Position numbers and translations under genes: made by a program. This document shows, in pieces, positions 7,566 to 27,509 of a DNA stretch of 64,000 nucleotides. The notes under the pieces are model-generated. The model made no database searches, had not been told where the DNA came from, and saw nothing but the letters and a program-made list of their open reading frames with translations. Position 1 is the first letter of the stretch. Each line of letters begins with the position of its first letter. The DNA lies in the NCBI GenBank assembly GCA_026002995.1, contig BPGK01000001.1, positions 124,001-188,000 of the forward strand, written 5' to 3'. This DNA comes from Gaiellaceae bacterium. Lineage in GTDB: Bacteria; Actinomycetota; Thermoleophilia; Gaiellales; Gaiellaceae.

Positions 7566-9731
7566 ATGACGAGGGGGAGACTCGGCGCCGCTTGCCTCCT
7601 GATCGCCGCGGCGCTTCTGAGCGTGGGAGTCAGCGTCGGCCTCGCCGGAGGACGCGCGCTCGACGCGGGCGCGCCCGCGACCGTCGACTACGGGAGCGCG
7701 CTCGTCCTGCTGAAGGGCGATCCGCTCGCGACGTACGAGAAGACGAAGCCGCCGAAAGGGAAGAAGATCGACTTCTCGAGCGCGACGGTGAAGGCCTACC
7801 GTGCGCACCTGAGCGCGCTCCGAAACGACTTCAAGCGCTGGCTGCGCGAGAACGCGAAGGATGCGCGCGTCGTCGGCGAGTTCGACACCATCCTCAACGC
7901 CGTCTCGGTGCAGCTCAACGGGGTCTCGCTCGACACGCTCCGCTCCGCTCCGGGCGTCGTCGCGGCCGAGTACCAGGGCCTGTACCGCCCCGCCGAGCAT
8001 GGGCAAGACCCGGACCTCTCGCTCATCGATGCCTTCAGCGCCTGGGGAGGCGCCTCCCACGCCGAGGGCGCGGCCGCTGCCGGCGCAGCCGTGAAGGTGG
8101 CGATCATCGATAGCGGCATCGACACCTCGCACCCCTGCTTCCAGGACGGGGGCTCGGTCGAGCAAAACGGCGAGACGAACACGAAGGTGCTCGACGCGAA
8201 CGTCTACTTCATGCAGAACAACCGCTTCCGCTTCACGCCGGCCGACGTGAACGGCCACGGGACGCACGTCGCTGGCACCGTCGCCTGCAACTTCAACACG
8301 GCGGCGACGATCGACGGCGTTGCGATCCCGTACGGCGTCTCCGGCGTCGCCCCGGCGGCGAGGCTCGGGAACTTCAACGTCTTCCCGGGGAACGTCGGCA
8401 GCGCGCGCTCCGAGGACATCGTGGACGCACTCGAGGACGCGCTCGAGAAGGGCTACGACGTCGCGAACATGAGCCTCGGGGGCGGCTCCTCCGGGATCAA
8501 GGACCTCCTCAGCATGGCGGTGGACAACGCCGACCGGGCGGGCATGGTCGTCGCCGTCGCGGCCGGGAACTCCGGCCCCGGCCTGAACACCGTCGAGTCC
8601 CCGGGCATGGCGCCGCGGGCGCTGACCGCGGGCGCGGCGAGCGTGGGGCACTTCGTTGGTGCGCCGATGACGGTCGGATCGACGGAGTACGAGCTCGCGA
8701 CCGGCGACTTCGAGACGGTCGAGGACGACCTCACCGCGAATCTCGACGCCGTGACGGATCCGGCCGGCCCCGGCGGGCTCAGCACGGCGTGCACGGCGCT
8801 TCCTGCCGGAAGCCTCGCCGGGGAGATCGCCGTCGTCTCCCGCGGAGACTGCTCGTTCTCGACGAAGATCCGTAACGCGCAGGCAGCGGGCGCGGCCGCG
8901 GTCGTCGTCGTGAACAACGTCCAGGGCGACCCGATCGCGATGGGCCAGGACGGCACGCCGAGCCAGCCGACGGTGCCCGCGTACATGGTCGGGCTCGGTA
9001 GCCGGGCCGCGCTCGTCGCCGCGGACGGCGCGTCGGCGACGATCGACAGCGACCGCTCGTACTTCCTGACCGGCAACGACGACTTCATGGCAGGCTTCTC
9101 CAGCCAGGGGCCGACCGACGTCGACTTCCGGGTGAAGCCGGACGTCGTCGCGCCGGGCGTGAACGTCCTCTCCGCGCAGCCGGCCTCGGCCTGCAAGCTC
9201 CGGCCCTGCTTCGCGTTCTTCCAGGGGACGTCGATGGCGACCCCGCACCTCGCCGGCGCAGCGGCCTTCCTGAAGTCGAAGCACCCGTCCTGGAGCTCGG
9301 CCGAGATCCGCTCGGCGATCGTCAACACCGCGGTCGAGGGTGTCCTGAAGACGTTCAACACGGGCGAGCTGACTTCCAACGTGAACGTCGTCGGCGCCGG
9401 CCGGCTGGATCTCGCCCGTGCGAACGCTGCCAAGGTGGCGCTCGACCCGGTGAGCGTGAGCTTCGGGGCGGTACCCTCGGGCTCCGGCCAGTCGGCGTCG
9501 AAGACGGTGTCGCTCTCGAACCTCGGCGGCTCCGGGCCGTACTCGGCGTCCGTCACGGGCGAGAACTGCGAGCCGCGCGTCGACTTCGAGGCATCCGTGT
9601 CCGGGATGACGGTGACGGTGACCATGCGTTCGCAGAAGTTCCAGGGCGCTGCGCTCTGCCAGGGCATCCTGCGCATCTCGAACCCCGGCGGCGAAGTCGC
9701 GCACGCCGCGGTCTTCGCGCTGATCAAGTAG
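7566..9731 (+). CDS. Secreted S8 family serine peptidase with inserted PA domain
   Basis: Subtilisin-like protease of 721 residues, exported. Order of parts: signal peptide (Arg-rich start then hydrophobic segment, residues 1-28); I9-type propeptide (about 45-135); catalytic domain with D182 (AIIDSGID), H231 (GHGTHVAGT) and S556 (GTSMATPH); a protease-associated (PA) domain inserted between His and Ser (about residues 400-480, containing AVVSRGDCSFSTKIRNA); and a C-terminal beta-rich ASH/Fn3-like domain. AAGGGGGAGAG just upstream is a clear ribosome binding site for the ATG at 7566. The architecture resembles Vpr-type subtilases. Substrate unknown. Confidence 0.93.
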   Translation: MTRGRLGAACLLIAAALLSVGVSVGLAGGRALDAGAPATVDYGSALVLLKGDPLATYEKTKPPKGKKIDFSSATVKAYRAHLSALRNDFKRWLRENAKDARVVGEFDTILNAVSVQLNGVSLDTLRSAPGVVAAEYQGLYRPAEHGQDPDLSLIDAFSAWGGASHAEGAAAAGAAVKVAIIDSGIDTSHPCFQDGGSVEQNGETNTKVLDANVYFMQNNRFRFTPADVNGHGTHVAGTVACNFNTAATIDGVAIPYGVSGVAPAARLGNFNVFPGNVGSARSEDIVDALEDALEKGYDVANMSLGGGSSGIKDLLSMAVDNADRAGMVVAVAAGNSGPGLNTVESPGMAPRALTAGAASVGHFVGAPMTVGSTEYELATGDFETVEDDLTANLDAVTDPAGPGGLSTACTALPAGSLAGEIAVVSRGDCSFSTKIRNAQAAGAAAVVVVNNVQGDPIAMGQDGTPSQPTVPAYMVGLGSRAALVAADGASATIDSDRSYFLTGNDDFMAGFSSQGPTDVDFRVKPDVVAPGVNVLSAQPASACKLRPCFAFFQGTSMATPHLAGAAAFLKSKHPSWSSAEIRSAIVNTAVEGVLKTFNTGELTSNVNVVGAGRLDLARANAAKVALDPVSVSFGAVPSGSGQSASKTVSLSNLGGSGPYSASVTGENCEPRVDFEASVSGMTVTVTMRSQKFQGAALCQGILRISNPGGEVAHAAVFALIK

Positions 9732-19566: not shown

Positions 19567-20703
19567 TCAGAAGCCGGACACGTCGAGCCGGATGATCGTC
19601 CTCCCGTCCTTGCTCGTGGTGCCCGCGGTGGTCGCCGCGCGCCGAAGCGCCGACTCGACGCTCCCGGGCGAGGCGCCGCTGTTGCCGGAGAGGTAGAGCG
19701 CGCCGCCGCCGCCGACGTGCGGTGAGGCCATCGACGTGCCGCTCATCGTTGTCGTCCCGCCTCCGCGCCGCGTCGACAGGATCGAGACGCCCGGCGCCCA
19801 GAGGTCGACGCAGGCGCCGTAGTTGCTCCACGAAGCCTCGCGGTCGGCGGAGTCAGTGGCGGCGACCGTCATGACGCCGCTGTACGTCCCCGCCCGCGCT
19901 GGCGAGTAGTTGCACGCGTCCGCGCCGCTGTTCCCGGCGGCGACGGCGAAGAAGATGCCGCTGTCGGCCGCCGCCTTCACCGCGTTGTCGAGCGCCGTGC
20001 TCGCGCTTCCGCCGAGACTCATGTTGGCGATCGCGGGCTTGATCGCGTTCGCCCGCACCCAGTCGACGCCCATGATGACGCCCGAGGTGCTGCCGGAGCC
20101 GTTGCAGCCAAGCACCTTGACGCCCGTGATCGGCGCGCCGGGAGCGACTCCGACGACGTCGGAGGTGTTGTCCCTGGCCGCGATCGTGCCCGCGACGTGC
20201 GTTCCGTGGCCGTGGCAGTCCCGGTTCTGGCCGCCCGCGAAGTTCACGTGACGGACGACGTTCAGGTCCGCGTGGCGCGTGTCGACTCCGGTGTCGATGA
20301 CGTACACGTTCACGGTCGAGACCGTTCCGCTCCCGTTGCCCGCGAGCGTCGAGCTGACGTCGGCATCGACCTTGTCGATACCCCATGGCAAGGTCTGCGC
20401 GGAGACCGTCACGAGGGCGTCGGGCTCGATGTAGGCGACGCGCTCGTCGGCGCGCAGCGCCGCGAGGCGTGCCTCCGGGAAGATGCCGGCGTAGCCCTTG
20501 AGCGCGTGCTCGTAGACGTGCGTGATGGTCGCCCCGAAGCGCTTCGCATGCTCTCGAGCGACGGGCGCGGCACGTGACACGGACGGCTCGAGGACGACGA
20601 TGAAGCTCGCGGGCGAGCCTTGTGTTGGGGAGGCCGAGGCCGGGAGCGCGAAGAGAAGGACGGTGAGTGCCAGCACGACTGCGGGCGCGAGGGACCGAAG
20701 CAT
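19567..20703 (-). CDS. Secreted proteinase K-like S8 serine peptidase
   Basis: Extracellular subtilase of 378 residues. Signal peptide about residues 1-25 (cleavage near ASA-SPT), I9 propeptide 33-95 (SFIVVLEP to RVAYIEPD), then a compact catalytic domain with D137 (YVIDTGVD), H166 (HGHGTHVAG), oxyanion N258 (AAGNSG) and S324 (SGTSMASPH). Several cysteines in the mature enzyme suggest disulfides. GAAGGGAG upstream is the ribosome binding site for the ATG at 20703. It lacks the PA domain of the 7566 peptidase. Likely a nutritional protease. Confidence 0.93.
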   Translation of the reverse strand: MLRSLAPAVVLALTVLLFALPASASPTQGSPASFIVVLEPSVSRAAPVAREHAKRFGATITHVYEHALKGYAGIFPEARLAALRADERVAYIEPDALVTVSAQTLPWGIDKVDADVSSTLAGNGSGTVSTVNVYVIDTGVDTRHADLNVVRHVNFAGGQNRDCHGHGTHVAGTIAARDNTSDVVGVAPGAPITGVKVLGCNGSGSTSGVIMGVDWVRANAIKPAIANMSLGGSASTALDNAVKAAADSGIFFAVAAGNSGADACNYSPARAGTYSGVMTVAATDSADREASWSNYGACVDLWAPGVSILSTRRGGGTTTMSGTSMASPHVGGGGALYLSGNSGASPGSVESALRRAATTAGTTSKDGRTIIRLDVSGF

Positions 20704-22494: not shown

Positions 22495-24189
22495 TCAGCT
22501 CACCGCGGAGCGGTAGCCGGTTGCCGCCGGCCCCGCGAGGCGCGCGCTCATGACGGTCTCCGCGGCCTCTGCGCTCTGTGGATGGCCGGTGACGGCGGCG
22601 AGGAAGTCCTCCCGGTCGAGCGCGTACAGGACGACGGGCGTGCGGGCGGTGACGGTCGCCGTGCGCGGGACGTCCCGCAGGAGCGCGATCTCGCCGAAGG
22701 AGTCGCCTGGCCCGAGCGTCGCGATCGTGGCCCCGCACTGCGAGACCTCGAGCTCACCCTCCGCGAGGATGTAGAAGCGGTCTCCCTCGTCGCCCTCGCG
22801 CACCACGACCGTCCCCGGATCGAGGCGGAGCGGAACGAGCCGGCCGGCGAGGTGTTCGAGCGTCCCGCCCGGCAGGGGAGCGAAGATCGGAACCGATGCC
22901 AGCAGCCTGAGCGCCTCGGTGTCCGGTGCTCTCGCCTCGGCGTCGATGCGGGCGACCGTGGCGCCGAACGCGACGACGAGCGCGGGGAGGAAGAGGCCGG
23001 TCGCGACGAGCGCGGCCTCCACGCCGAGCGCCGAGATGAGCGCAGGCGCGAGCGCGGCGCCGATGCCCATCGACGCCATCCACAGCATCTGGATGACGCC
23101 GAAGACGCGTGCGAGCACCTCGTCGGGAACCGTTCTCTGAACGAGGGTCAGTCCGGAGACGTCCACGAACGCGTTGCCGACGCCGATCACCGCGAGCGCG
23201 AGCAGCGCGATGGCGACCTCGTTCCAGACGCCGATCGCGACGAGGGGCAGCCCGGTCACGAGCAGGCCGACGAGGAAGGCGGGGCTCAACCGGCGCACCC
23301 CCGTCAGCGAGAGCGCGGCGACCGCCCCGGCGAACGCGCCGATGCCGATCGCCGCGTTCAGGTAGCCGACTCCCCCCTCCCCGAGGTCGAGGAGGTCGAT
23401 CGCCATGACGACGATGAGGACCTGGAGCGCGCCGAACATCGCCGTCTGGGCGGTGAGGAGGCCGAGCATCACCCGGAGCGAGCGGTGGCGACCGAGTGTC
23501 GTGAAGCCGGCGAGCCGCTCGGCGGCGATGGTCGTCGCATCGAGCTCTCGTCGCGGCTGTTCCTCGTGCTCGAGCCTGATGAGGGCGAGGAAGACCGAGG
23601 AGACGACGATGAGCGCGGCGGTCGCGGCGAAGACGACGTCCGCGCCGGCGAGCCCGAGGAGGACGCCCGCCAGCGCCGGGCCGGCGAAGACGGCGACGCT
23701 CTCGACGCCGCTGGCGACCGCGTTTGCCGCCGTCAGCTCCTCGGGCGTGCGAGCGAGCGCAGGCGTCAGCGCGGCTTGGGACGAGCGGAATGGTGTCGTC
23801 GCGACGGTCGCGGCGATCGCGAGCCCGTACACGACGAGCGGGTCGGCGGCGAGGAGCACGCCGACCGCTGCGCCCGCGACGAGCACGATGCGCGTGACGT
23901 TCGTCCAGAAGAGGACGCGCTCGCGTGGGTAGCGGTCGCCGAGCATGCCGGCGAAGGGGGAGACGAGGGCGGCCGGGACGAGGCGCGCGAGGAAGACGAG
24001 CCCGACCGCCCTCTCGCCGCCGACGCCGTACGCGTAGACGGAGACGGCGACGAGGAAGGCGTAGTGGCCGACGATCGATGCCGTCCAGGCGAGCTCGAGC
24101 CAGCGCAGACCGGCGTTGCGCCAGACCGCCTCGAACGCGGCGAGCGAGTCCGCTATGCGTCGGCCGAGCCCGCCCATGGCGCGGAGCAT
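22495..24189 (-). CDS. MFS transporter fused to a C-terminal cyclic-nucleotide-binding domain
   Basis: 564-residue fusion from the ATG at 24187-24189 (a second ATG four codons later is equally possible). Residues 1 to about 410 hold 10-12 hydrophobic helices of the major facilitator fold, with the loop-2 motif GMLGDRYPRERV. Residues of about 425-535 form a Crp-type cNMP domain with EGDEGDRFYILAEGELEV and the phosphate-binding cassette FGEIALLRDVPRTATV. The arginine and glutamate of the cassette are present, so nucleotide binding is plausible. Cargo unknown. No terminal DNA-binding domain. Confidence 0.88.
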   Translation of the reverse strand: MLRAMGGLGRRIADSLAAFEAVWRNAGLRWLELAWTASIVGHYAFLVAVSVYAYGVGGERAVGLVFLARLVPAALVSPFAGMLGDRYPRERVLFWTNVTRIVLVAGAAVGVLLAADPLVVYGLAIAATVATTPFRSSQAALTPALARTPEELTAANAVASGVESVAVFAGPALAGVLLGLAGADVVFAATAALIVVSSVFLALIRLEHEEQPRRELDATTIAAERLAGFTTLGRHRSLRVMLGLLTAQTAMFGALQVLIVVMAIDLLDLGEGGVGYLNAAIGIGAFAGAVAALSLTGVRRLSPAFLVGLLVTGLPLVAIGVWNEVAIALLALAVIGVGNAFVDVSGLTLVQRTVPDEVLARVFGVIQMLWMASMGIGAALAPALISALGVEAALVATGLFLPALVVAFGATVARIDAEARAPDTEALRLLASVPIFAPLPGGTLEHLAGRLVPLRLDPGTVVVREGDEGDRFYILAEGELEVSQCGATIATLGPGDSFGEIALLRDVPRTATVTARTPVVLYALDREDFLAAVTGHPQSAEAAETVMSARLAGPAATGYRSAVS

Positions 24190-24292
24190 GGCATCCGATC
24201 TCGCCGAATGAAAGACTCCGGGAAGATTTCCGGAGTCGCGACGGTCTAGGAGAACAAATCGCGCGAGAGCGCCGACCAAGGAGGAGTACGAG
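24190..24292. other. Divergent intergenic region with an 8-bp inverted repeat
   Basis: Between the MFS-cNMP gene and the repeat peptide. GACTCCGG (24214-24221) is inverted at 24230-24237 around an 8-base loop. Possible operator or attenuator; no -35/-10 pair is convincing. Confidence 0.4.
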
Positions 24293-24517
24293 ATGTCGGA
24301 CGAGATCCGCCCAGAGGACGAGGTCGAGGCGCACGGCCCGCTCGGCGCCGGCCCGACCGCCGGCGGCCCGGCGGCAGAGGTCCCGAGCATGGAGGGCCCG
24401 ACTGCCGGGGCGAGCGAGGAGCCAGATGTCGAGGCGCACGGCCCGCTCGGCGCCGGCCCAGCAGCGATGGGCCCGACGGCAGAGGGCCCGACGGCAGAGG
24501 GCCCGGCCGCCGAGTAG
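24293..24517 (+). CDS. Small acidic Gly/Ala/Pro repeat protein
   Basis: 74 residues, unrecognised. It has a strong ribosome binding site (AAGGAGG, 9 bases before the ATG). Two copies of VEAHGPLGAGP (preceded by E or D) start at residues 11 and 46, and GPTAE-type units fill the C-terminus. No cysteine, no membrane segment, no aromatic residue; net negative. The DNA carries a perfect 32-base direct repeat (24323-24354 and 24428-24459) and a 15-base tandem pair at 24469-24498. It is convergent with the GAF/subtilase/sigma operon and shares its terminator. A precursor peptide, scaffold or signalling peptide are all possible; none is supported by a known family. Confidence 0.65.
   Translation: MSDEIRPEDEVEAHGPLGAGPTAGGPAAEVPSMEGPTAGASEEPDVEAHGPLGAGPAAMGPTAEGPTAEGPAAE
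24323..24498 (+). repeat. Internal direct repeats of the small repeat protein gene
   Basis: A perfect 32-base repeat at 24323-24354 and 24428-24459 (105-base period) and two tandem 15-base units at 24469-24483 and 24484-24498. All periods are multiples of three, so the reading frame is preserved and the protein can expand or contract by whole motifs. Confidence 0.8.
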
Positions 24518-24538
24518 CTTCGTCGCTCAGCGAGCTTC

Positions 24539-24566
24539 GAGAGGCCCGGGAGCTCCCGGGCCTCTC
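24539..24566. terminator. Bidirectional terminator
   Basis: A perfect 28-base palindrome, 14-bp arms with no loop, centred between 24552 and 24553. It lies 21 bases after the repeat-protein stop and 8 bases from the GAF gene stop, placed to end both convergent transcripts. Confidence 0.8.
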
Positions 24567-24574
24567 TCGTTGCC

Positions 24575-25219
24575 CTACCGCCCGAGCATCCGGGAGAGCT
24601 CGTGCAGGAGCCGCATGCCCGCCTCGCGGCGCTCGTCCTCGAGCGCGTCGACGGCGGAGGCGAGCTCGGCGACGACGCGCAGGTCTCCGTCGGCTCCGGC
24701 GAGGAGCTTCTCCGCCCTGCGGGCCTTGAGGAGGAGATCGACTGCGATCGCCGCCTGGTTCGCGAAGAGACCGAGGAGCTCCATCTCCTGGAGCGAGAAG
24801 AGCGAGGCCCGCGGGCGGTCGAGCACCGAGAGCACGCCGAGGGCGCGCTCGCCGTGGAGGAGCGGAGCGGCCATGAGCCCCTTCGGCACGTACCCCGTAT
24901 CCCTGGCGACGTCGGCCGCGAAGCGGGGATCCTGGTGCACGTCCTCGACCACGAGCGGCGTGCGCGTGGCGAGCACCCAGCCGGAGATGCCCTTTCCGGC
25001 CGGGTAGCGCATGCCGAGGAGAGAGTCCTCCCCCTCTCCCACGACCGCCTCGAACACGAGCTCGTCCGTCTCCTCGTCGAGCAGGACGATGGACGACGCC
25101 TTCGCGCCGAAGATGGCTCGGGCCACCTCCACGATCGCTCCGAGAAGCGCGCGGAACGTCTCCTCGGAGCCGACGACTCCTGCGGCGACGGCGGCGTGCA
25201 GGTCGTCTCTCGCGGTCAT
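24575..25219 (-). CDS. GAF domain protein
   Basis: 214 residues: one GAF sensor domain (about residues 20-165, with ASSIVLLDEETDELVFEAVVGEGED, GMRYPAGKGISGWVLATRTP and GLMAAPLLHGERALGVLSVLD) and a C-terminal helical segment (about 175-214, Leu/Arg/Glu-rich, perhaps coiled coil). No output domain. GAF domains bind small ligands, nucleotides or redox groups; ligand unknown. The ATG overlaps the subtilase stop (ATGA), so the two proteins are made together and may interact. Confidence 0.87.
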   Translation of the reverse strand: MTARDDLHAAVAAGVVGSEETFRALLGAIVEVARAIFGAKASSIVLLDEETDELVFEAVVGEGEDSLLGMRYPAGKGISGWVLATRTPLVVEDVHQDPRFAADVARDTGYVPKGLMAAPLLHGERALGVLSVLDRPRASLFSLQEMELLGLFANQAAIAVDLLLKARRAEKLLAGADGDLRVVAELASAVDALEDERREAGMRLLHELSRMLGR

Positions 25220-26067
25220 GCGCCACCTCCGACGTTCGTCGCGGTCAGGTAGAGGACGTTCTTGAGCTGGAAGGGCGTCAACTCGGGGTGCTTCGCGAGG
25301 ATGAGCGCGCAGATGCCCGCGATGTGGGGCGTCGCGAAGCTGTTGCCCGACACGGTGAGCGTCCGGCCGTCGCTCCACGGCACCTCGACGTTCACCCCGT
25401 GCGCGAAGATCTCGACCGGCGGGCTCGGGTTGTAGAAGTAGGCGAACGGATCGGGCTCCTCGTGGCTGCCGACGGAGATGACCGAGGAGAAGCGCCAGGG
25501 GTAGCTCTCCACGGGCATGTTGTGGGCGGAGGCCACGATCACGGTACGGCGGAAGTACGCGCTGTCGGCGAGCTCGTGCAGGACGGCGGCGAAGGGCTTC
25601 TTCGTGGTGGAGAGGCTCATGTTGATGACGTCGAACCCCTGCTCGACCGCGTAGCGCAGACCTCCGAGGAGGACGGCGCCGCTGCCCGTGAAGTTCGCTC
25701 CGAGCACACGGACGCTCGAGATGCTGCATTCGGGTGCGAGCCGGCGGACGATTCCGGCACAGGCCGTGCCGTGACCGGAGACGTCACCCTCCGTGTCGTC
25801 GCTCGCAATCACCTCGCCGTCCTCGCCGAGGGAGATGACCACCGCGGTCTCGAGCCCGCCGACGCTCGGGTGGTCGGCCTCGACCCCGGAGTCGAGGATG
25901 CAGACGCGCGCCCCCCTACCCGTCGAGCCGCCCCAGGCCCATTCGCGTGTGACCCGCTCCGGCCAGTCGCCCGGCAGCGCGATTCGGTCGACGGCGTCCT
26001 TGGGGAGGCTCCAGGCGGGGAGGGCCGCCCGGCTCGCGTCCCACCCGTGCGCGACTGCGTCTTCCAC
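25216..26067 (-). CDS. Intracellular S8 family serine peptidase
   Basis: 283-residue subtilase without signal peptide or I9 propeptide. The triad is D59 (CILDSGVE), H99 (SGHGTACAG) and S243 (GNSFATPHIAG), with oxyanion Asn N183 (ASAHNMP). The serine motif GNSFATPH replaces the usual GTSMATPH and His is followed by GTAC rather than GTHV. This resembles subtilases tied to peptide maturation or regulated intracellular proteolysis rather than nutritional enzymes. It is coupled to a GAF protein and lies in an ECF sigma operon. Substrate unknown. Confidence 0.88.
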   Translation of the reverse strand: MEDAVAHGWDASRAALPAWSLPKDAVDRIALPGDWPERVTREWAWGGSTGRGARVCILDSGVEADHPSVGGLETAVVISLGEDGEVIASDDTEGDVSGHGTACAGIVRRLAPECSISSVRVLGANFTGSGAVLLGGLRYAVEQGFDVINMSLSTTKKPFAAVLHELADSAYFRRTVIVASAHNMPVESYPWRFSSVISVGSHEEPDPFAYFYNPSPPVEIFAHGVNVEVPWSDGRTLTVSGNSFATPHIAGICALILAKHPELTPFQLKNVLYLTATNVGGGA

Positions 26068-26100
26068 GGGGTCTGACTCTACGCGGCCGAGAGCTCGGGA

Positions 26101-26358
26101 TCAGCCCGCACCCAAGCGGGCGCGGAGCTCGGCAAGCGTTCGCTCGTCGGTCTCGTAGCCCGCCTGTGCGAGCGCGTCCTCGAGATCCGCGAGGAGCTCC
26201 TCCCGGAAGGCGATGTCGGCCTCGGCGCGCTCGATGATCTCAGCGAGCGTCCGCCGCGCGAACGGCAGCTCCTGCGCCGCCCGCACCCAGCCCTCAGGAG
26301 CCGGGGGCAGGAGGCGCAGGAGCTCCCCCAGCCGTTCGACATCGCGCGTACGCTCCAT
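26101..26358 (-). CDS. 85-residue helical protein directly downstream of an ECF sigma factor
   Basis: Unrecognised. Entirely helical in character and charged (Glu, Arg, Leu-rich), with LLRLLPPAPEGWVRAAQELP near the N-terminus. No zinc-finger cysteines and no membrane segment, so it is not a classical anti-sigma factor. The ATG follows the sigma stop codon with no gap, which implies tight coupling and a possible role as a sigma partner. An overlapping frame (26079-26342) lacks coding character. Confidence 0.7.
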   Translation of the reverse strand: MERTRDVERLGELLRLLPPAPEGWVRAAQELPFARRTLAEIIERAEADIAFREELLADLEDALAQAGYETDERTLAELRARLGAG

Positions 26359-26916
26359 CTACTTCCCAGACACCGCGGGCGGCTTGTTTCTTCCCTCGAA
26401 CTCGAGTCGGAGTTTCGCGAGGCAGCGCGCGATCCTGCTGGCGATCGTGCCGGAGGGGAGGTCGAGCTCCTCGGAGATCGTCCGGTAGCTCTCGTCGCGT
26501 GCGAAGAAGCGGTCGAGGATCTCCTGGCACTGGGGCGAGAGCCTGCGCAGGGCCTCGCGGACCTGGAAGGCCTCGTCGATCTCGGCGAGGTCGCCGGTGG
26601 CGACGTCCGGAGGCGCTTCCAGGGGCTCCTCGGGCCGGCGCCGCGCGATCGTGTCGAGACACACCCGCCGCGTGAGCTGGGCGATCCACGGGCGCAGAGC
26701 GGACTCGTCGCGAAGCGTGCCGAGGCTCGTGTAGACCCGCGTGAAGACGTCCTGGAAGGCGTCCTCGGCCTCCTCCGTGGGAAGGTGGAACCCTCTCGTG
26801 CAGATCGCGTACACGTAGCGCGAGAACCGCTCGACGAGCGCGCTCCAGGCCTCGGCGTCGCCCGCGCGACAGCGCCGGACGAGCTCGGCGTCCGACGGCG
26901 CGGCGCGCATGCTCAT
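26359..26916 (-). CDS. ECF-type RNA polymerase sigma factor
   Basis: 185 residues with region 2 (about residues 8-95, including EEAEDAFQDVFTRVYTSLGTLRD) and region 4 (about 115-172, LRRLSPQCQEILDRFFARDES and IASRIARCLAKL). The ATG overlaps the stop of the cyclodeaminase-like gene (ATGA). It is followed without gap by the 85-residue gene, then the intracellular subtilase and GAF protein. Regulatory input unknown; the GAF protein or subtilase may control it, but this is inference. Confidence 0.92.
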   Translation of the reverse strand: MSMRAAPSDAELVRRCRAGDAEAWSALVERFSRYVYAICTRGFHLPTEEAEDAFQDVFTRVYTSLGTLRDESALRPWIAQLTRRVCLDTIARRRPEEPLEAPPDVATGDLAEIDEAFQVREALRRLSPQCQEILDRFFARDESYRTISEELDLPSGTIASRIARCLAKLRLEFEGRNKPPAVSGK

Positions 26917-27509
26917 CGGCCCGCTTCCGCCGCCTCTTCGGCGGCGTCCGCCGCCGAGCGCGCGCTGGCTCGTGCGCGGGCGAGCCGCGGGTCGTCTCCC
27001 CGAACGGCAAGGTTGACCTCCACGAGGTGCGCGGCGGCGCGCGCGGCGCCCGCAGCCAGCGCCGCTGCGGCCGCGGCGTCGGGTCGGAATGAGCCTTCGC
27101 AGCTATCGGCCGTCGTCGCGGCCAGGGACGCCATGTCGGCTCCGAGCTCGGCGATCGCCAAGGGGGCGGCTGCGGCGCGGGCGAGCTCCTGCTCGAGCAC
27201 GAAGTCGCGGCGCGGATCGCCTCCTGCGCTCCGGCGTGCTCTCTCGAGCGCGGCGAGCGCTCGCTGCCACGCCTCCGCATCGACGTGCGCGAGCTCGAGC
27301 GCGCGCACGCGGACGGCGAGCGCCTGTGCGGCGATGCCGTCGGCCTCGGCCCACGACTCCGTCGAGCAGCGAGCGGCCATGGCGACGACGCTCGCGGCGA
27401 GCGCGACCGTGAGCGCCGCTCCCGTTCCCGCCCCGGGCGCCTCCCCTTCCGCCGCGAGCCGCTCGAGGAGGGTCTCGAGGCGCAGCCCGACGTAGCCGTC
27501 GTCTCGCAC
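26913..27509 (-). CDS. Formiminotransferase-cyclodeaminase-like protein (FTCD_C/FchA fold)
   Basis: 198-residue all-helical, Ala-rich protein. PGAGTGAALTVALAASVVAMAAR near residue 25 is the glycine-rich start of the cyclodeaminase domain, which releases ammonia from formimino-tetrahydrofolate. The domain stands alone, without a formiminotransferase part. First gene of the operon with the ECF sigma factor (4-base overlap); any functional link to the sigma/protease genes is unclear. Confidence 0.8.
   Translation of the reverse strand: MRDDGYVGLRLETLLERLAAEGEAPGAGTGAALTVALAASVVAMAARCSTESWAEADGIAAQALAVRVRALELAHVDAEAWQRALAALERARRSAGGDPRRDFVLEQELARAAAAPLAIAELGADMASLAATTADSCEGSFRPDAAAAAALAAGAARAAAHLVEVNLAVRGDDPRLARARASARSAADAAEEAAEAGR

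Follow-up and report, generated by a model that had tools for sequence, protein, structure and literature searches.

The 64-kb window analyzed here, a stretch of the 2.62-Mb single-contig genome of a Gaiellaceae bacterium, contains a gene cluster that we read as a compact peptide-maturation system under the control of an extracytoplasmic function (ECF) sigma factor, a reading to which we give a probability of about two in three. The cluster encodes the sigma factor, an 85-residue helical protein (p85), a 283-residue subtilase (S8), a GAF-domain protein (GAF), a 74-residue multi-copy peptide (REP) and a major facilitator superfamily (MFS) transporter with a C-terminal cyclic-nucleotide-binding domain. 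In the proposed mechanism, the sigma factor would recognize promoters of the form GGGAAGA-N16-[N]GTCT and switch on REP and p85-S8-GAF together. The cytoplasmic S8, with GAF as an obligate partner, would then cut REP after the histidine of each (D/E)VE(A/G)H motif, which would remove the acidic leader and spacers and release short, species-specific core peptides. The MFS transporter would export these cores, possibly gated by its cyclic-nucleotide domain, and the peptides may act as a signal or an antagonist. Finally, p85, which resembles the leaders of the NHLP family and would be expressed from a sigma-type promoter behind the sigma gene, is proposed to feed back on the sigma factor. The initial annotation of this DNA had raised the idea of peptide maturation or regulated proteolysis, with the repeat peptide as a possible substrate, and this idea is well supported by the conserved linkage, the shared promoter and relatives of the type found with ribosomally synthesized and post-translationally modified peptides (RiPPs).

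Relatives of the locus come mostly from metagenome-assembled genomes (MAGs), and those that are named are Thermoleophilia or Gaiellaceae MAGs. Strong matches to p85 are present in 33 of 81 genomes, counting that of the window, and the sigma gene lies directly 5′ of p85 in all 32 of the relatives' loci fetched around p85. In those 32 loci, S8 is directly 5′ of GAF wherever S8 has sequence beyond it; two other S8 genes are cut off by the ends of their contigs. The order sigma factor, p85, (cyclodeaminase-like protein), S8, GAF, REP on the opposite strand and MFS recurs through the family and in a second family of the order. The MFS gene adjoins REP, divergently, in nearly all linked loci, and the divergent arrangement is kept in L069 and L070, where the REP-MFS pair has been relocated before S8. 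The cyclodeaminase-like gene is found near sigma-p85 in about two thirds of the loci, at a position that varies between genomes. The initial annotation had looked to the co-occurrence of the subtilase-GAF and sigma-p85 pairs in related genomes to decide whether the operon was a chance arrangement, and the pairs do co-occur. Of 299 Thermoleophilia genomes, 47 have both p85 and S8, 6 have only p85, 4 have only S8 and 242 have neither (Fisher p = 3e-43, with related genomes not independent of one another). The two pairs lie on different contigs in several of these genomes. They co-occur even when unlinked, and the arrangement of the locus is not a matter of chance.

A shared promoter connects the REP gene with the p85-S8-GAF operon. 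The sequence GGGAAGAt, a spacer of exactly 16 nucleotides and [CG]GTC(T/A/C)nG are found upstream of nearly every REP gene examined, and the same site ends 5–8 nt 5′ of the start codon in most p85 genes, usually within the 3′ end of the sigma gene. Six p85 sites fall outside the pattern used by the script; in the printed sequence these have the same −35 element, with a slightly different −10 element or a start codon that is too close. Promoters of the GGGAA...CGTC form are typical of ECF sigma factors. The sigma factor of the window (26359..26916, minus strand; TIGR02937 1.6e-24, PF04542, PF08281) belongs to the ECF class, having regions 2 and 4 and no region 3. The REP site of the window (24220..24249, plus strand) reads GGGAAGA TTTCCGGAGTCGCGAC GGTCTAG, with the start codon 43 nt downstream, and the site for p85-S8-GAF (26366..26395, minus strand) lies within the 3′ end of the sigma gene, with the p85 ATG 7 nt on. 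The p85 transcript is predicted to be leaderless because of the spacing of 5–8 nt between promoter and start codon.

A position weight matrix was trained on 51 sites taken only from other genera. In a scan of both strands of the window, its top match was the REP site (27.5 bits), followed by the p85 site (18.6 bits) and then by a match of 14.3 bits. A genome-wide scan by the pattern GGGAAGA-N17-GTCTRG gave two matches in 2.62 Mb, namely the REP and p85 sites, and the reversed pattern, used as a control, gave none. Since these are the only two matches in the genome, it is very probable that the sigma factor drives both, in a regulon linking REP with p85-S8-GAF. Among held-out loci, a promoter-led search located REP genes beside unlinked S8 genes in L186, L188, L190 and L195, the last with a peptide already known from L114, and also found REP genes in L241 and L242. 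A different origin for the p85 site, as merely conserved coding sequence of the sigma gene, is ruled out by two loci: in L039, where an insertion separates sigma and p85, non-coding DNA next to p85 still contains the site, and in Miltoncostaea oceani the site has accompanied p85 to its new place behind GAF. In some genomes, the same ECF-type promoter also stands before a third small gene, for a basic protein of ∼60 residues (MYYSPHTHLAIAHERHEDMLREARKRQLARL...), at L091:906-934 (−), L045:8658-8686 (+), L048:7550-7578 (+), L236:660-688 (+) and L190:2339-2367 (+); in several genomes this promoter is just ∼5 nt from the start codon.

REP (24293..24517, plus strand; MSDEIRPEDEVEAHGPLGAGPTAGGPAAEVPSMEGPTAGASEEPDVEAHGPLGAGPAAMGPTAEGPTAEGPAAE) carries two (D/E)VEAH motifs with a GPLGAG... 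core after each. We collected 40 distinct precursors, each with at least two motifs and de-duplicated by sequence, as some contigs were fetched twice via two collections; single-copy forms lie outside this count. All follow one plan, in which a short acidic leader is followed by (D/E)VE(A/G)H, a core, an acidic spacer, the motif again, a core and the stop codon. This is the architecture of a ribosomal precursor with leader and core, as in RiPPs, and in nearly every Thermoleophilia locus a peptide built in the same way adjoins S8-GAF. Copies within one precursor agree at 60% of the four positions that follow the motif, against 12% once segments have been shuffled between precursors (2000 shuffles, maximum 20%) and 19% for spacer positions. 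The final copy often stops right after a very short core of 3–6 residues (VDAVE, VKAGR, RHKL, RMK, VNLG). Within the genus of the window the cores are unrelated (repeats of GPTAE, GNTD, EPAGT and AENVA) while S8 is 74–85% identical. REP cores repeat within a precursor and differ between species. They contain no Cys and no constant modifiable residue, and REP matches no Pfam or NCBIfam model. Elsewhere in the genome, the DNA pattern for VEAH has single matches that lie in unrelated frames. Assignment of REP as a graspetide precursor, with repeats of Thr/Ser and Glu/Asp, was rejected, as Thr/Ser is missing from several cores and the neighborhood contains no conserved ATP-grasp gene. In M. oceani (L230), inspection of 18.8 kb revealed no motif-bearing repeat peptide, and a gene for a hydrolase of the metallo-β-lactamase fold (L230:10875-11681) lies between p85 and the MFS gene.

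The protease itself (25216..26067, minus strand; PF00082 1.9e-30) is a member of the S8 family, with an Asp-His-Ser triad, an oxyanion Asn and a Peptidase_S8 domain above cut-off. Residues D59, H99, N183 and S243 are invariant in 23 homologues. Pfam detects the catalytic domain alone (residues 50–280), the predicted model has a pTM of 0.83, and a sequence search of the Protein Data Bank (PDB) returned general subtilisins only. The absence of a signal peptide and propeptide, described in the initial annotation, agrees with Pfam, which finds no propeptide domain, and with inspection by eye, in which no signal peptide is evident, no dedicated predictor having been run; the unusual triad surroundings GNSFATPH and SGHGTACAG are likewise present as written. 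Near its N-terminus, S8 in the genus of the window has motif-like stretches (DAVAHG, DVSAHG, EVAAHS; window 26011-26067), as does that of M. oceani (AEVEAHAA, L230 around 9040). It is possible that these are sites of self-cleavage or self-inhibition.

The partnership of S8 with GAF (24575..25219, minus strand; PF01590 1.5e-19) extends well beyond Thermoleophilia. A scan of contigs gave hundreds of S8 relatives. Of the best 80, which include Streptomyces, Kitasatospora, Streptosporangiaceae and Rhodococcus, the 78 that have enough sequence all show GAF immediately 3′ of S8 (75 strictly, 3 overlapping). Outside Thermoleophilia, a small open reading frame with [DE]V[EVQ][AG]H is present in 31 of 45 S8-GAF loci (Streptomyces, Kitasatospora and others), which makes this motif the best of 120 permutations (median 2). 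The small proteins include PEVEAHSVLDLQ-type peptides and aroma-sacti/StsA-related proteins with PDVEAHMIGGLLF-style ends, and the neighbors include radical-SAM enzymes, a relative of ATP-grasp peptide maturases, a large adenylate-cyclase/TPR protein and sactipeptide-type domains. Because of these motif peptides and maturase-type neighbors in actinomycete loci, we conclude that S8-GAF accompanies RiPP-type clusters. One locus, from Kitasatospora sp. MAP5-34, encodes beside a radical-SAM enzyme and S8-GAF a six-copy DVVAH...PWCFSNSGNTDL (DVVAH...WCFSNSG) peptide (L143:853-1356, −) that looks like a multi-core RiPP precursor.

Motif and linkage support a role for S8 as a RiPP leader protease, and S8 probably cuts REP at the motif. 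The cut is predicted to follow the His because (D/E)V-E-(A/G)-H fits the ElxP pattern, with His replacing Gln. For GAF, a role as a required subunit or sensor stands at about even odds. Export of the cores by the MFS protein (22495..24189, minus strand, divergent from REP, its start codon taken as the first ATG not encroaching on the REP promoter) is a tentative assignment.

The sigma factor was described in the initial annotation as lacking a recognizable anti-sigma gene. It is not simply bare, given that in Thermoleophilia p85 (26101..26358, minus strand) is nearly always adjacent to it and is preceded by a separate promoter of the sigma type. In its C-terminal half, p85 matches NF038399 (5.3e-7; 29.6 bits against a curated cut-off of 40) and PF14407 (7e-7; 29.9 against 48), both below cut-off, and the protein ends with this leader-like domain, with no core after it. 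A p85 profile compared with the PDB matched nitrile hydratase alpha (1.4e-4) and the NHLP leader 8tb1 (0.0023). The resemblance of the C-terminal half to NHLP leaders and to the N-terminus of nitrile hydratase alpha is weak but consistent. Helices are predicted at residues 2–16, 22–65 and 72–83 (pLDDT 89), and a fold search against the PDB gave no significant match. Gene order and promoter are compatible with a predicted anti-sigma role; regulation of the sigma factor by p85, the least supported step of the mechanism, is conceivable at somewhat less than even odds. The earlier idea that S8 might cleave the 85-residue protein is not supported, as the p85 of almost every genome is without the (D/E)VE(A/G)H motif. 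DVVAH or SVVAH does occur near the C-terminus of 3 of 33 p85 proteins (L065, L069, L070), possibly by chance. In another locus (L124:2349-2579, −), a weakly matched Frankia_peptide/LigA-like leader domain is followed by DLVVAH and a short tail, and it is possible that this protein links the p85-type domain to motif-bearing precursors.

The position of p85 directly behind sigma in almost every genome, with a sigma-type promoter of its own, would also suit an anti-sigma factor acting in negative feedback, and sigma-p85 is kept with S8 even when unlinked. These facts could be explained by S8-GAF being a regulatory protease of the sigma circuit, in which GAF senses a ligand, S8 destroys p85 or a REP-like inhibitor to free the sigma factor, and REP is a regulator or decoy. 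However, related S8-GAF pairs in Streptomyces and others lack sigma and p85 and stand next to precursors and maturases of the RiPP type, p85 has no protease motif, and the REP cores are hypervariable, unlike a regulator. We regard this explanation as unlikely. Marginally less likely still is that REP is a full RiPP precursor whose cores are modified, before the S8 cut, by an enzyme encoded elsewhere, making the locus an ordinary RiPP cluster with a scattered maturase. The radical-SAM or ATP-grasp maturases of related actinomycete S8-GAF loci and the NHLP-like leader domain of p85 would fit such a cluster, but the REP cores are without Cys or a constant modifiable residue and the surroundings of the Thermoleophilia loci contain no conserved maturase gene, unlinked maturases in the genome not having been searched for. 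That unrelated genes have met by chance, with REP a disordered acidic protein untied to the protease, draws on the cyclodeaminase-like gene, which moves around and is absent in some loci, and is very improbable, being contradicted by co-occurrence and linkage, the genome-unique shared promoter pair and the motif enrichment.

We therefore return to peptide maturation under sigma control, against which several points weigh. Five genomes (G012, G032, G037, G249 and G267), most of them incomplete, have S8 without detectable sigma and p85, and one of these, G012, nevertheless has REP preceded by the promoter. In the DNA covered, roughly one in three Streptomyces-type loci lacks a motif peptide. The cores vary so widely in composition (GPTAE, GNTD, AENVA, RHRM) that it is difficult to envisage one activity for them all. 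It is co-inheritance that suggests this particular sigma factor as the reader of the GGGAAGA promoter. Lastly, in contrast to ordinary RiPP clusters, the neighborhoods of the Thermoleophilia loci share no conserved modification enzyme, the rest of the genome not having been searched. Because such an enzyme was sought in the neighborhood and not found, we do not class the locus as a RiPP cluster.

The remaining features complete the layout. Genes lie at the positions and on the strands given in the initial annotation, and the spacings it listed are confirmed: an ATGA overlap between the cyclodeaminase-like and sigma genes, 0 bases between sigma and p85, 33 bases between p85 and S8, and an ATGA overlap between S8 and GAF. 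Its boundary left out the MFS gene and the two ECF-type promoters. The frequent companion upstream is an FTCD_C/cyclodeaminase-cyclohydrolase-like protein (26913..27509, minus strand; PF04961 2.1e-20). The 57-base gap between the convergent REP and GAF genes contains a hairpin (24539..24566) with a perfect 12-bp stem (fold z-score −2.6 on the plus and −3.8 on the minus strand), which is probably the shared terminator that had been proposed, with no strong T run. Two more Peptidase_S8 matches in the window, at 8082-9347 (+) and 19618-20313 (−) in frames of 785 and 509 residues, are not of the S8-GAF type; the genome has nine Peptidase_S8 matches.

In these little-studied soil and water bacteria, a precursor with repeats appears to give rise to short peptides that change rapidly. 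For the protease-GAF pair that accompanies RiPP-type genes in Streptomyces and numerous other actinomycetes, our reading offers a function that can be tested, and the proposed cut site, if true, would allow leader removal in vitro for many cryptic clusters. It also reveals a hypervariable peptide family in the mostly uncultured Thermoleophilia, together with the sigma factor, promoter and protease proposed to make the peptides. Miltoncostaea oceani, a cultured bacterium from marine sediment, has a relative of the locus in which the sigma factor, protease and p85 can be studied.

In the open-access literature, to which our search was confined, with subscription literature outside it, we found no description of the motif or the system and nothing direct on S8-GAF in RiPP clusters. 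Several known systems share parts of the system. Control of lantibiotic clusters by ECF sigma factors is known from MibX/MibW and PspX/PspW, where, as proposed here, an ECF sigma factor governs a ribosomal peptide cluster in actinomycetes (PMC3933326). MibW and PspW are co-encoded anti-sigma factors, whereas the partner here is the soluble, NHLP-like p85, whose anti-sigma role is putative. The NHLP, Os1348 and Frankia_peptide leader families match the C-terminal half of p85 weakly, and p85 differs from them in scoring below the curated cut-offs, in its conserved N-terminal half (LPPAPEAWVRAAQELP) and in having no core after the leader domain. Actinomycete radical-SAM clusters of the StsA-related and aroma-sacti types (NF045559, NF045560) have an S8-GAF pair nearby and short precursors ending in (D/E)V(E/Q)(A/G)H and a short tail, but in these, radical-SAM enzymes and a cyclase-TPR regulator replace sigma, p85 and the MFS gene.

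The REP motif resembles the sites of known S8 proteases of RiPPs: PatA cuts after G(L/V)E(A/P)S, ElxP cuts at (D/E)(L/V)xxQ and AmyP needs (T/S/A)EVE (PMC10885120). AmyP and ElxP, which serve lanthipeptides, are, like S8, subtilases of the S8 family, acting as RiPP leader proteases on acidic-aliphatic motifs, and the ElxP motif has the same −5/−4 pattern as the (D/E)VxxH of REP; ElxP is also cytoplasmic (PMC10885120). Unlike theirs, the REP locus has no lanthionine synthetase and has a multi-copy precursor and a GAF partner. The cyanobactin precursors, in which several hypervariable cores are flanked by recognition sequences (PMC4663559), share with REP several such cores per precursor, a 4-5-residue recognition sequence before each and a subtilisin-like protease (PMC4663559; PMC10885120). 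The REP locus is not a cyanobactin cluster, and differs in having no PatG macrocyclase, heterocyclase or AYDG-type signal; no second S8 is conserved in the cluster, and no AYDG-like signal is present at the C-terminus of REP. Its S8 differs from PatA in having no PatA DUF domain, in being paired with GAF and in standing under an ECF-type promoter. By analogy, the system would operate as a peptide precursor with multiple cores that is served by a leader protease of the S8 type. A bolder and rather doubtful comparison, which we would not favor on present evidence, is with multi-copy peptide pheromone precursors, of which this would be a bacterial counterpart: unmodified, short, species-specific peptides would be cut intracellularly by S8-GAF out of a hypervariable tandem precursor and exported, and one ECF sigma factor, with a repurposed RiPP leader as its partner, would target only the precursor and the protease operon.

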